This document shows positions 24,599-34,303 of a stretch of 64,000 nt of DNA, in pieces (the first letter of the stretch is position 1; each line of letters begins with the position of its first letter). The position numbers and the translations under genes are program-made. A model generated the notes under the pieces. The model saw only the letters and a program-made list of their open reading frames with translations, searched no databases and was not told the origin of the DNA. Origin of the DNA: Candidatus Rokuibacteriota bacterium (GTDB lineage: Bacteria > Methylomirabilota > Methylomirabilia > Rokubacteriales > CSP1-6); assembly GCA_030647435.1 (NCBI GenBank), contig JAUSJX010000115.1:1-64000 (forward strand), written 5' to 3'.

Positions 24599-25807
24599 CT
24601 AGCAGCAGCCCCCGGCGATGGCGCCTTTGGGCAGTACGCGATCGGGCTCCCAGCCCCACGGGCGCGGCCCGAAGTCGGGCGCGAACACCGTGCCCCGCTT
24701 CACCGTGAGATGCGGAAGGAAGGCGCGCTCGACGCGCAGGCCGGAGCCCAGGATGTCGTAGACCATCCAGTCGCCCTGCCGGAGCTCGAGGACCGAGACG
24801 TCGGCCTGGCGTCCAACCTCGAGACGGCCGAGCCGATGCTCGACGCCGATGGCCTTCGCGGGGTTCGTGGTCGACATCGCCACCACCTGCGCCGGCGTGA
24901 AGCCGAGGCCGAGGAAGCGCGTCATGATCTCGGTCATGCTGTGCACCGTCTGGAGACGCCCGGGCACAGTCAGGTCGGTGCTGATGCAGTGCGGAAGGAG
25001 GCCCTGGTCGATGATCCGGCGGCCGACGTCGAAGCTGAAGTTCATCCGGCCGTGCGCGGTGTCGAACCAGACGCCGCGGTCGGCGGCCTCGCGCGCCTCG
25101 GGCACGAGCTTGCCGTTGGCGTCGAGGACACCGCCGGGGTTCGGCGTGAAGTAGTGGGTCAGGATGTCCCCGGGCTCGAGCAGCGAGAGCAGCGGGTGAA
25201 TCACCTTCGGGTCATAGCGCTTCGTCGTGTCCCCGATGTGGACCATCAGCTTGATGCCGGCTTCGCGCGCCGCCCGCTTGGCCAGCTTTGGCATCTCCAT
25301 GCCCATGATCTCGAGCGCGGGCGATACCATGCGCGCCTTGATCCCGCGGATGAGCCCCTTGTACTGGCTGGCCACCCGCACCGTGTCATCGAGGTCCACG
25401 CTGCTCTCGGCGATGATGTCCGGGTTCGTGGCAAGCCCCGTCTGGCAGATATGGAGAAACGGCACGATCTCGGTGTGACACCGCGGGATGATGTGACGTG
25501 GGAAGGCGTCGAAGGTGGCCGCCCCCGCGCTCCCGGCGTCCACGATGGTGGTGACGCCGGCGTAGACGCCGGCCAGATCGGGATTGACCCCGGTGCGGTT
25601 GACGCCCTCGAACACATGGGCGTGGCAATCGATCAGCCCCGGCGTGACGATCTTGCCCCCGACCTCAACCACCCGCGCCGCCTCGCCGGCAGCGATGCCC
25701 GCGGCGATGCGCGCGATCTTCCCATTCCCGATCGCCACGTCAAGGACACCGTCGAGCCCGCTCGCCGCGTCAACAACGGTCCCACCCTTCAGCAAGAGAT
25801 CGTACAT
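24599..25807 (-). CDS. Amidohydrolase/deacetylase-family metalloenzyme
   Basis: 402 residues. The metal-binding HAH is in GLIDCHAHVFEG (near 62), a probable bridging Lys in IRGIKARMV, a His in LMVHIGDT, and a catalytic Asp in STDLTVPG. These are features of the TIM-barrel amidohydrolases close to dihydroorotase and EF_0837-like deacetylases. The natural substrate is unknown. It precedes the acyl-CoA ligase by about 25 bp and is probably in the same operon. Confidence 0.85.
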   Translation of the reverse strand: MYDLLLKGGTVVDAASGLDGVLDVAIGNGKIARIAAGIAAGEAARVVEVGGKIVTPGLIDCHAHVFEGVNRTGVNPDLAGVYAGVTTIVDAGSAGAATFDAFPRHIIPRCHTEIVPFLHICQTGLATNPDIIAESSVDLDDTVRVASQYKGLIRGIKARMVSPALEIMGMEMPKLAKRAAREAGIKLMVHIGDTTKRYDPKVIHPLLSLLEPGDILTHYFTPNPGGVLDANGKLVPEAREAADRGVWFDTAHGRMNFSFDVGRRIIDQGLLPHCISTDLTVPGRLQTVHSMTEIMTRFLGLGFTPAQVVAMSTTNPAKAIGVEHRLGRLEVGRQADVSVLELRQGDWMVYDILGSGLRVERAFLPHLTVKRGTVFAPDFGPRPWGWEPDRVLPKGAIAGGCC

Positions 25808-25867
25808 GTCTGTCCTCTCGGGAAGTCTTCCCCGCCAACGTCACGCTCGGGTGGGCATGTTGGATCG

Positions 25868-25881
25868 CAAGACCTGACCCC
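25868..25881 (+). repeat. CAAGACCTGACCCC repeat, isolated copy
   Basis: The motif CAAGACCTGACCCC also occurs at 57253 and, close to it, at 58015, with an inverted copy at 57172. Here it marks the left edge of the islet with the HslV-like gene. Confidence 0.6.
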
Positions 25882-25895
25882 AGATTCTACAAGCA

Positions 25896-25929
25896 ACAAG
25901 GCCGGCGCAGGGACCAGCGCCGGCCTTGT
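25896..25929 (-). terminator. Hairpin terminator of the HslV-like/peptide operon
   Basis: ACAAGGCCGGCGC (25896-25908) and its perfect complement GCGCCGGCCTTGT (25917-25929) form a 13-bp stem with an 8-nt loop, 19 bp after the stop of the 47-residue peptide. On the minus strand the stem runs into TTGTTGCTTGT, a moderate U-rich tail. Confidence 0.65.
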
Positions 25930-25947
25930 GCGTGAGCGTCAAGATCC

Positions 25948-26091
25948 CTAGGCTTTTGCTGGCTGCTTCTCCTTTTCTTCGGCGCTCTCCCGGACAGGGG
26001 GAATCACCCGCACACGGCCTGTCTTCAGATCTTCCTGACGGGCCGCCTGTTCCTGCTGGAGGCGCTCAAGATCTTCATCGACGTTACGCAT
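25948..26091 (-). CDS. 47-residue charged peptide
   Basis: MRNVDEDLERLQQEQAAR opens a highly charged, Gln/Glu-rich helix. It continues through a short hydrophobic stretch (VRVIPPV) to a lysine-rich end. ATG 26091 is 5 bp after the stop of the HslV-like gene, so the two are translationally coupled. The terminator follows directly. No family is recognised. It could be a substrate, adaptor or regulator of the hydrolase. It lacks a Gly-Gly C terminus and is not Pup-like. Confidence 0.55.
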   Translation of the reverse strand: MRNVDEDLERLQQEQAARQEDLKTGRVRVIPPVRESAEEKEKQPAKA

Positions 26092-26096
26092 GTCAG

Positions 26097-26942
26097 CTAC
26101 CCCCTATCCGCAAGTCTACGCCCCCCGGGGTGGTGGAGCAATTTCCCTGGGTGCCAGAGTATCTCTTGAACAGGCGCTGTCTTCAAGACCATCAGGTCTA
26201 TCGGGCCCCCGCAAAGCGGCTCACCAGGTAAGAACCGTTCCATCTGAACTTGGGTCGACGCAAGAAAGTACGCGAAGTCCATTGCGTCCTGGATGGGCAT
26301 CACCCCAACGGAGAGCTGCTCGATCGGCTTGAGTATCTTGAGCTGCCCAAGCGTGTGCCGCAACGCCTCGATACCCACGGGCTGATCCCCAACCTTGAGT
26401 TCGTCGGCCAACGCGGTCACAAGCCTGAAGTCGTAGCCGTACAACAGTGTAAAGACATTCCGGTACGATCCTTCGAAGTAGACAGGGTTGTCGATCCGCC
26501 CGACAGTGGTGTCCTGGCCACGATAAGCGATGCGCCAGACAACTGGCTCGCTGGAGGACGGTGACACTGCCGCTAGCATGAGTACCGTGTCTGGCCAGCG
26601 TTCGACCTGCACGTCCGCCCAATAAGCGTTTCGCATCTTCGCCATGTCTTCCGCGAAGCCACGGATCGCCTCGTCATGCTTCTGATAATCAGAATGGCCA
26701 GGCACCGTACTTGAGGCGATGTAGTCCATAAACGAGATGCGACCAAGGCTCGCACTCCCGGTGACCACGACCATCGCGGTGTTCGACTGATCCTTCACTA
26801 TCTTGGTGGCGTTCTCATACGTCTGGGGCACGACGATCGGCTCCCCGTTCGTGTCGAACCCGGCACGACCGTAGGTCGTCAGCCGGCTGTCAGCTGCAAA
26901 CACGACTGCTGTAGACGTCTGAATCGAGATTGCGATCGTCAC
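26097..26942 (-). CDS. Proteasome/HslV-like Ntn-hydrolase
   Basis: 281 residues from GTG 26942. After removal of the initiator the protein starts TIAISIQTSTAVVFAADSR. It aligns with HslV and proteasome beta subunits without gaps over T1 to D17 (VVxAxD). A Lys at mature position 46 (ENATKIV) fits the family's K33 after a 13-residue insertion, and TGSASLG follows like the conserved TGG-type loop. This predicts an N-terminal-Thr peptidase. It is longer than HslV and has no HslU-type ATPase nearby. The start is supported by a -10 box TATAGT 7 nt upstream. Family assignment is by motif alignment only. Confidence 0.55.
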   Translation of the reverse strand: MTIAISIQTSTAVVFAADSRLTTYGRAGFDTNGEPIVVPQTYENATKIVKDQSNTAMVVVTGSASLGRISFMDYIASSTVPGHSDYQKHDEAIRGFAEDMAKMRNAYWADVQVERWPDTVLMLAAVSPSSSEPVVWRIAYRGQDTTVGRIDNPVYFEGSYRNVFTLLYGYDFRLVTALADELKVGDQPVGIEALRHTLGQLKILKPIEQLSVGVMPIQDAMDFAYFLASTQVQMERFLPGEPLCGGPIDLMVLKTAPVQEILWHPGKLLHHPGGRRLADRG

Positions 26943-26949
26943 AGCTGGC

Positions 26950-26955
26950 ACTATA
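26950..26955 (-). promoter_or_regulatory. -10 box of the HslV-like gene
   Basis: Minus-strand TATAGT, 7 nt before the GTG at 26942. Transcription would begin at or next to the start codon, giving a leaderless mRNA. Confidence 0.5.
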
Positions 26956-27015
26956 CATCTGCAACCGCGGAACTTGGCGCACCTTGCAGGGTGTCTGGGA
27001 AGCAATACAGTCTAC

Positions 27016-27248
27016 GGCCCAAGCAGGAAGAGGCGATCCTCAAGAAGAGCATCGAGACGCTGACGCCCTTCACGGGGCGCCGTCCGGTCGGCTGGCGCGC
27101 GCCGTCCTGGCAGCTCTCGGCGAAGTCGCTCGATCTCGTCGCCAAGCACGGCTTCGAGTACTCATCGAACATGATGGACCGGCTCGTGCCGTACCTGCAC
27201 CCGGAGACCCACGGCGTCACCAACTTCGCCGTCGAATCCCATCACTGA
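27016..27248 (+). pseudogene. Partial copy of the polysaccharide deacetylase gene
   Basis: From CCCAAGCAGGAAGAG the sequence is nearly identical to 33808-34000 of the intact deacetylase gene, coding for a segment with GWRAPSWQLSAKSLD. It then jumps to the segment HGVTNF, which lies about 140 bp further on in the intact gene. The jump falls at a short repeated block (GAGGCCCACGGC and GAAGCGCACGGC in the intact gene), suggesting slippage or recombination. It ends soon after, at 27248. Not functional. Confidence 0.8.
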
Positions 27249-27667
27249 GCCCTCCTGATGACTTCCACGCGGCCGGCCTTCGGATCTACCCGGACCCGGT
27301 CCCCCGTCCGGATCGCCTCCATCGGGTCGGGTGAGAGCTGGTCCATGAGGGCGATGCCGGCCAGGACCGCTCCCTGGACCATGACGGGGTTGGCCCAGGT
27401 GAAGAGCATGGCGACCGGCGCGAGCCCCCGCGAGCGGAGATCGAACAGCGCCCACGAGGTCGCGAAGCCGCCTTTGGCGAGCGGGCAGACGAGGACCTTG
27501 CCCGCGATGGACGCTCCGTAGAGAGCGTGGGACTCCCGGGAAATACGGCCGGTGACACGGTCGAGATCGTAGCGGGCGCTGAAGCCGTCGGGGGAGACGA
27601 GGGCTAGGCCCTCCACCACCTCCCCGACCCCCGCGTGGCCTGTCAGGATCACGGGCGCCGCATTCAT
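27242..27667 (-). CDS. Aconitase X small (swivelling) subunit, DUF126
   Basis: 141 residues. LVSPDGFSARYDLDRVTGRI and KGGFATSWALFDL are typical of the DUF126 swivelling domain. It forms the small subunit of two-part aconitase X enzymes, such as bacterial cis-3-hydroxy-L-proline dehydratase. ATG 27667 overlaps the stop of the large subunit by four bases (ATGA), so the two are translationally coupled. Substrate is inferred only from the family. Confidence 0.85.
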   Translation of the reverse strand: MNAAPVILTGHAGVGEVVEGLALVSPDGFSARYDLDRVTGRISRESHALYGASIAGKVLVCPLAKGGFATSWALFDLRSRGLAPVAMLFTWANPVMVQGAVLAGIALMDQLSPDPMEAIRTGDRVRVDPKAGRVEVIRRAQ

Positions 27668-33475: not shown

Positions 33476-34303
33476 ATGGCAGACGCCAAAGCGACGGCCC
33501 CCGCGGCACCCCGGTGGCCCGGCGAGACCCGGGCCGCCTGCGCCTTCACCTTCGACATGGACGCCGAGACGCTGTGGATGGCGCGGGACATCCACGAGCC
33601 CGTCGCGCTGTCGCAGGGGCGCTTCGGCCCCATCGAAGCGCTGCCGAGCATCCTGGCGCTGCTGGAGAAGGCCGACGTCCGCGCGTCCTTCTTCATCCCC
33701 GCGTGGGTCGCGTCGCACTATGCGGACGCCGTCCGCGCCATCGCGGCGGCGGGGCATGAGATCGGCTGCCACGGTGACGAGCACGAGCGCGTCTCCGAGC
33801 TCGAGCCCAAGCAGGAAGAGGCGATTCTCAAGAAGAGCATCGAGACGCTGACGCCCTTCGCGGGGCGCCGTCCGCTCGGCTGGCGCGCGCCGTCTTGGCA
33901 GCTCTCCGCGAAGTCGCTCGATCTCGTCGCCAAGCACGGCTTCGAGTACTCCTCGAACATGATGGACCGGCTGGTGCCGTACCTGCACCCGGAGGCCCAC
34001 GGCCGCGCGCTGGTCGAGATCCCCGTGTCGTGGGTGCTGGACGACGCGCCGTTTTTCATGTTCACGGGCCAGCGGAGCATCCAGGCGCCGGGGCCGGTGC
34101 TCCAGGGATGGATCACGGAGTTCGACGGCATCACCGAAGCGCACGGCGTCACCAACTTCACCTTCCACCCGCAGATCATCGGCAGGCCATCGCGCCTGGC
34201 GTGCCTGCGGGAGCTGCTCGATCATGTGAAACACACGCCGCGCGTCTGGACCGCGCCGCTCGGCGAGATCGCCGCTCACTGGCGGACCACCAAGCAGCCC
34301 TGA
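33476..34303 (+). CDS. Polysaccharide deacetylase-family protein
   Basis: 275 residues. NodB-type motifs: FTFDMDAETLW (catalytic Asp region), CHGDEH for metal binding, then GWRAPSW. It is close to the cyclic-imide/polysaccharide deacetylase group of cytoplasmic enzymes (no signal peptide). The natural substrate may be a small amide rather than a sugar polymer. TACTCT at 33461-33466 lies 9 nt before the ATG, suggesting a near-leaderless mRNA. A broken partial copy sits at 27016-27248. Confidence 0.85.
   Translation: MADAKATAPAAPRWPGETRAACAFTFDMDAETLWMARDIHEPVALSQGRFGPIEALPSILALLEKADVRASFFIPAWVASHYADAVRAIAAAGHEIGCHGDEHERVSELEPKQEEAILKKSIETLTPFAGRRPLGWRAPSWQLSAKSLDLVAKHGFEYSSNMMDRLVPYLHPEAHGRALVEIPVSWVLDDAPFFMFTGQRSIQAPGPVLQGWITEFDGITEAHGVTNFTFHPQIIGRPSRLACLRELLDHVKHTPRVWTAPLGEIAAHWRTTKQP

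Follow-up and report, generated by a model that had tools for sequence, protein, structure and literature searches.

The locus and its surroundings

Two genes on the reverse strand of the window (the whole 64,000-nucleotide stretch analysed, from contig C115 of a 5.8-Mb genome of Candidatus Rokuibacteriota) stand out: a 281-residue protein that is, by predicted structure and profile comparison, a proteasome-fold Ntn hydrolase, and a 47-residue peptide encoded directly after it (Table 1). Both open reading frames lie where an earlier reading made from the DNA letters alone (the sequence-only reading) had placed them, and the peptide's ATG follows the hydrolase stop by 5 bp, as claimed there. 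The 5-bp gap is identical in the same-genus genome G059, and in a further relative (G064, L004) stop and start overlap as ATGA. We hypothesize that the two genes would form a co-transcribed unit that is probably translationally coupled.

Table 1. Features of the hydrolase-peptide locus (positions in the window)
Feature	Position	Strand	Basis
Islet	25824..27254		Lower G+C; unrelated DNA in sister genome G058
13-bp inverted repeat, terminator-like	25896..25929	-	Sequence, pattern scan
47-aa partner peptide	25948..26091	-	ORF, ATG start
Gap, hydrolase stop to peptide ATG	26092..26096	-	5 bp, sequence
Proteasome-like Ntn hydrolase	26097..26942	-	ORF, 281 aa, GTG start
Truncated polysaccharide-deacetylase/allantoinase-like duplicate	27017..27215	+	96% to 33805-34003; islet's right edge

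The reported 13-bp hairpin is present, 19 nt past the peptide stop; its T tract is poor, and in G059 the stem recurs with a diverged loop. At the other end of the unit, a promoter box had been offered in support of the GTG start. The hexamer TATAGT does lie just ahead of the GTG, with no sigma-70-type match, and if it served as the promoter the mRNA would be nearly leaderless, so that it makes a weak promoter candidate.

The pair sits in an islet whose G+C is 58-60%, against 66-70% around it, and third-position G+C is 0.72 in the hydrolase gene and 0.63 in the peptide gene, against 0.91 in the neighbouring amidohydrolase gene. A different origin for this DNA, which the sequence-only reading had proposed, is borne out by the same-genus genome G058 (C2, L099), where flanks 94% identical to the window (25500-25823 and 27255 onwards) enclose different DNA in place of the 1431 bases of the islet. 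By reading of translations, the G058 slot holds a rhomboid-like remnant and an ORF with a CBS domain. Of the two boundaries that had been described, the broken deacetylase copy stands: it is a 199-bp duplicate of part of an intact 395-aa ORF (gene at 33.1-34.3 kb) and still matches TIGR03212 (E 1.7e-5). The dispersed repeat fades, with short matches of 27-71 bp elsewhere and an 11-mer core in no clear excess within the window. Because G058 carries a replacement and the hydrolase is patchily distributed (3/95 genomes of the phylum), the evidence supports gain of the islet by transfer, or a variable slot, and the slot may be an exchange hotspot.

A predicted proteasome fold

Searched singly, neither protein of the pair matches anything in Pfam, NCBIfam or PHROGs; the hydrolase sequence alone likewise has no significant PDB match, and it found no relatives when used as the query against plasmids and phages (tblastn) and in IMG/VR scans. 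An AlphaFold2 model from three sequences was useless (pLDDT 37), and relatives were therefore gathered first. With an alignment of 27 sequences, the window hydrolase and 26 homologues, AlphaFold2 reached pLDDT 89.2 and pTM 0.85, and the structure prediction called for by the sequence-only reading returned the Ntn proteasome fold. All 50 PDB fold matches listed by Foldseek are proteasome subunits or Anbu (E 1e-7 to 6e-6, probability 1.00), the best being proteasome beta subunits and Anbu. Their TM-scores are moderate, about 0.6 by target, which is consistent with the insertions predicted in the hydrolase. The 27-sequence profile finds almost only proteasome beta and Anbu among PDB sequences (best E 0.0019), and against the HslV, PrcB and C12 homologue of the same genome hhalign gives probability 94 and E 1.4e-7. 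PHROG 5990 is matched by 20 of the 27 aligned family members, the window hydrolase itself falling below the threshold.

The model contains the beta-sandwich proteasome fold, S1-S11 with H1-H4 (H1/H2 at residues 71-77 and 86-111). The S3/S4 region is drawn out into a lengthened beta hairpin, extra helices lie between H3 and H4 (188-200 and 206-209), and the chain ends in a strand (260-267) and a disordered tail. This C-terminal tail, PGK-x-LHHP, is conserved; in the close family GK-x-[LV]HHP (residues 263-272) is invariant even though disorder is predicted, and it could be a candidate binding site for the peptide.

The window hydrolase has the catalytic residues T1, D17 and K46, counting from the residue that follows the start. 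Each of the 26 homologues in the deep alignment begins M-T or M-S, and residue 1 is Thr in 21 and Ser in six of the 27 sequences; the Asp17 position, the Lys33-equivalent lysine and the oxyanion-type glycine (Gly47-equivalent) are each kept in 26/27. The two residues on which the sequence-only reading had staked its assignment, the one after the start and Lys46, are thus held by the family, as Thr/Ser in 27/27 and Lys in 26/27. The M-T/M-S starts of the homologues, together with their conserved D and K, indicate that the GTG start is correct; this part of the earlier claim stands on the homologues and not on the promoter. From the conserved residues, the protein is predicted to be an active hydrolase.

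Of the label "HslV/proteasome-like", the Ntn proteasome fold was upheld and the HslV name was not, since profile and fold point to the wider proteasome-like superfamily. The window protein matches neither Pfam PF00227 nor the NCBIfam HslV model, whereas the genome's true HslV matches PF00227, and no HslU adjoins it, HslV-HslU forming a separate locus on contig C22. The two share the proteasome-type fold and the Thr1/Asp17 register, but the window hydrolase has 281 residues against about 175, a 13-residue longer S3/S4 region and the H3/H4 insertion. As the sequence-only reading had noted, no AAA+ ORF lies around the window gene. The same genome also encodes a 20S PrcBA with PafA/Dop-type ligases on C154 (L005/L007), besides the HslV-HslU of C22 (L006), and a fourth proteasome-like protein on C12 (L008), which reads MTLLVALKGSDGLVLAADSR....

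Anbu, a bacterial group II relative, likewise exposes Thr1 directly after the start Met and is close in fold (5nyw, E 1.5e-6; 5nyj, TM 0.49/0.58), but the sequence match is not significant (profile E 0.15 to 0.9), the extended C-terminal coiled-coil helix H5 of Anbu is absent from the window model, and the window hydrolase has a peptide partner instead. By architecture, the hydrolase resembles the uncharacterised PMI group II, beside which we set it on published descriptions. A 2021 survey by Fuchs, Alva and Lupas described 22 new families of proteasome homologues (PMC8665760). Common to PMI-1 to PMI-6 and the modelled window protein are the proteasome beta-like core, an initial Thr/Ser1 with no propeptide, Asp17 and the Lys, a patchy distribution in bacteria and phages, and no AAA+ partner. 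A helical insertion between H3 and H4, at residues 188-209 of the window hydrolase, has been described in PMI-2 to PMI-6 (PMC8665760). The difference lies in the conserved peptide gene after the window hydrolase, as neither an informative genomic context nor co-occurrence nor an AAA+ partner is reported in the survey for the new homologues (PMC8665760).

A conserved partner peptide

Relatives of the hydrolase were gathered step by step. That of G059 (L003) is 97% identical and cut by a contig end, that of G064 is 45% identical, and that of G095 (L002), a genome from a Centralia soil metagenome that is filed under Proteobacteria, is 41% identical; G502 (L019) and G615 (L020) hold further close members, and distant members occur in other genomes and IMG/VR contigs. 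Of six close members that appear intact, drawn from two phylum-level groups, five (the window, L003, L004, L019 and L020) have the peptide directly after the hydrolase, and two more peptide homologues lie beside hydrolase remnants (L012, L106). The co-occurrence that the sequence-only reading proposed to look for is found: in a profile search of the 95 phylum genomes, strong matches occur in the three hydrolase genomes only, adjoining the hydrolase each time (3/3 versus 0/92; Fisher p = 7e-6, a value that ignores relatedness). Among 193 relatives of G095, the profile finds G095, G502, G615 and the remnant genome G528 only. Three weak matches were taken as chance, one (L051) lying antisense within an aminopeptidase ORF and two (L052, L054) at places with no such gene.

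The peptides share a layout in which a predicted-helical N-terminal part leads through the motif G[KRE][VI]R[VL] to a variable charged tail, the full motif being Q-x5-R-x6-G[KRE][VI]R[VL]. Across the seven peptides, two of them from remnant loci, M1, Q12, R18, G25 and R28 are invariant and a hydrophobic residue is conserved at position 29. Comparison of the window with G059 gives a dN/dS of 0.10 (hydrolase) and 0.13 (peptide), which indicates that both are maintained as proteins. This comparative evidence makes the 47-aa ORF a genuine gene, conserved and under purifying selection; no homologue of known function was found for its peptide. That the peptide is a passenger ORF, functionally unconnected with the hydrolase, would be conceivable in G+C-rich DNA, which often yields chance small ORFs (0.22 expected by shuffling for the window alone, ATG starts), but sequence conservation over two phylum-level groups, purifying selection and strict co-occurrence leave this explanation almost no credence.

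At two loci the hydrolase has decayed and the peptide has not. A second copy in G095 (C18) has lost about codons 106-265 of the hydrolase to an internal deletion, the tail KTLHHP surviving out of frame, and keeps an intact peptide. In G528 (C5), at a contig end, only the last ~12 hydrolase codons are left (YPGKALHHPRDHR, stop), followed by an intact peptide. The intact hydrolase of G095 has no adjoining peptide, so that this genome holds one intact hydrolase and one intact peptide at separate loci, an arrangement consistent with peptide action in trans. Peptides that outlive their hydrolase, here at two loci, both in metagenome-assembled genomes and one at the end of a contig, are suggestive of a trans-acting partner that is safe or useful to keep.

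A putative regulator of the hydrolase

Our best reading, in which we would place about even confidence, is that the locus encodes a hydrolase that works without an ATPase and has its own small regulator, possibly an inhibitor. Thr1 would be exposed once the initiator Met is cleaved off and would act with Asp17 and Lys46. The enzyme would be a stand-alone threonine hydrolase of PMI-like type (group II), presumably active without an unfoldase, no dedicated AAA+ protein being encoded. The peptide would be its short cognate regulator, acting in cis and in trans, and most likely binds and restrains the hydrolase, or helps to assemble it; we infer both the binding and the sign of the regulation. The peptide is conserved alongside the enzyme and outlasts it, and for this reason the "peptide-regulated" option of the sequence-only reading is favoured, regulation as such remaining the conjectural part, and the regulator is favoured over the roles of substrate, adaptor and antidote.

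The most conserved stretch of the peptide, a short motif between the helical N-terminal part and the variable tail, looks like a recognition site. The peptide could accordingly be a dedicated substrate, cleaved or ligated at G[KRE][VI]R[VL], much as connectase acts on its tag, to yield a signal or modifier. There is precedent in connectase, a proteasome-fold homologue that acts as a sequence-specific ligase and is no protease (PMC8665760). Like the window hydrolase, connectase has no propeptide and has an insertion that could give specificity, but it is archaeal, lacks H1/H2, which the window hydrolase keeps, and has a two-helix S3/S4 insertion. Asymmetric loss speaks mildly against a pure substrate, which would not be needed where the hydrolase is deleted, and the peptide lacks a C-terminal di-Gly or similar conjugation end; we regard this role as unlikely. 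The acidic modifiers Pup and UBact, too, are small charged proteins encoded near a proteasome-type gene, but their GG[EQ] C-terminus is absent here, the window peptide ending in PAKA and its homologues variably, and no ligase is encoded at the window locus, the PafA-type ligase lying with the 20S genes on another contig.

Clp-type proteases commonly have small adaptors, and the peptide might similarly recruit to the hydrolase its substrates or a house-keeping unfoldase. This would suit an enzyme with no nearby AAA+ gene; Fuchs 2021 found no AAA+ partner for any of the new homologues (PMC8665760). Nothing specific favours such a role, however, and an orphan adaptor should decay with its protease, so that we consider it quite unlikely.

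If the peptide is the favoured regulator, the pair would show control of a proteasome-type core without an ATPase. The persistence of the peptide with the enzyme across distant bacteria suggests an enzyme-plus-regulator pair, of a kind undescribed in the literature searched. The functions of the 22 new families have been without a handle, as neither context nor partner emerged from the survey (PMC8665760), and the co-inherited conserved peptide provides a concrete one for a single lineage.

Small partners in the wider family

Across the wider family, a small ORF directly follows the hydrolase in 26 of 31 loci, where dinucleotide shuffles predict 6.1. An ORF was counted if it began with ATG on the same strand, was 40-115 aa long and started -25 to +50 bases from the stop; this criterion was set after the pattern had been seen, and some of the 31 loci are related. 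As a control, 23/95 of the remaining long ORFs at these loci have such a neighbour (Fisher p 4e-9); this control still includes two family members (L014, L029), which makes the true baseline somewhat lower. The small downstream proteins are mostly not recognisably alike, and those of the distant relatives have no recognisable homology to the window peptide. In 6/31 loci, all of distant relatives, the order is hydrolase, small ORF, toxin gene, the last being MazF/PemK (L014, L015), Fic/Doc (L016, L070) or VapC-type (L030, and L017, so called for its close similarity to L030). No report of this small-partner/toxin arrangement was found in the literature searched, which comprised open-access papers. 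The family-wide small ORF, at times with a toxin gene after it, offers testable hypotheses for many more lineages.

These neighbourhoods raise the question of whether the window pair is itself a toxin-antitoxin-like or immunity module, in which the hydrolase plays a toxin-like role and the peptide serves as antidote. At 2/2 decayed loci the hydrolase was lost ahead of the peptide, the distribution is patchy and islet-like, and several distant relatives stand immediately upstream of antitoxin-sized ORFs and MazF, Doc or VapC. The sample of decayed loci is small, however; the window unit contains no toxin fold, neither member of the pair matches a type II toxin family, and toxicity of a closed ring-type hydrolase would be unexpected a priori, so we hold the antidote role to be very doubtful. 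A broader form of the idea joins an addiction- or immunity-like pair of potentially harmful hydrolase and peptide antidote to PMI-type homologues in small-partner operons generally, including the hydrolase-small protein-MazF/Doc/VapC units. It strikes us as rather improbable; were it true, relatives of the proteasome would have a part in toxin-antitoxin or phage-conflict biology. A role in toxin-antitoxin operons was set aside as the main reading, as the arrangement occurs in those six loci only and not in the window family.

Two further arrangements were seen in the wider family. A separate subgroup, on three IMG/VR contigs (L066, L067, L068), has a conserved small partner of its own, MSDQIRKEKEIVGK..., which overlaps the hydrolase stop by 8 bases and is not homologous to the window peptide. 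On a Rhizobium gallicum plasmid (L040; NZ_CP017104.1, 5274-9062), a longer relative of 413 aa is encoded close to a multiubiquitin-domain protein and a ThiF-type adenylyltransferase.
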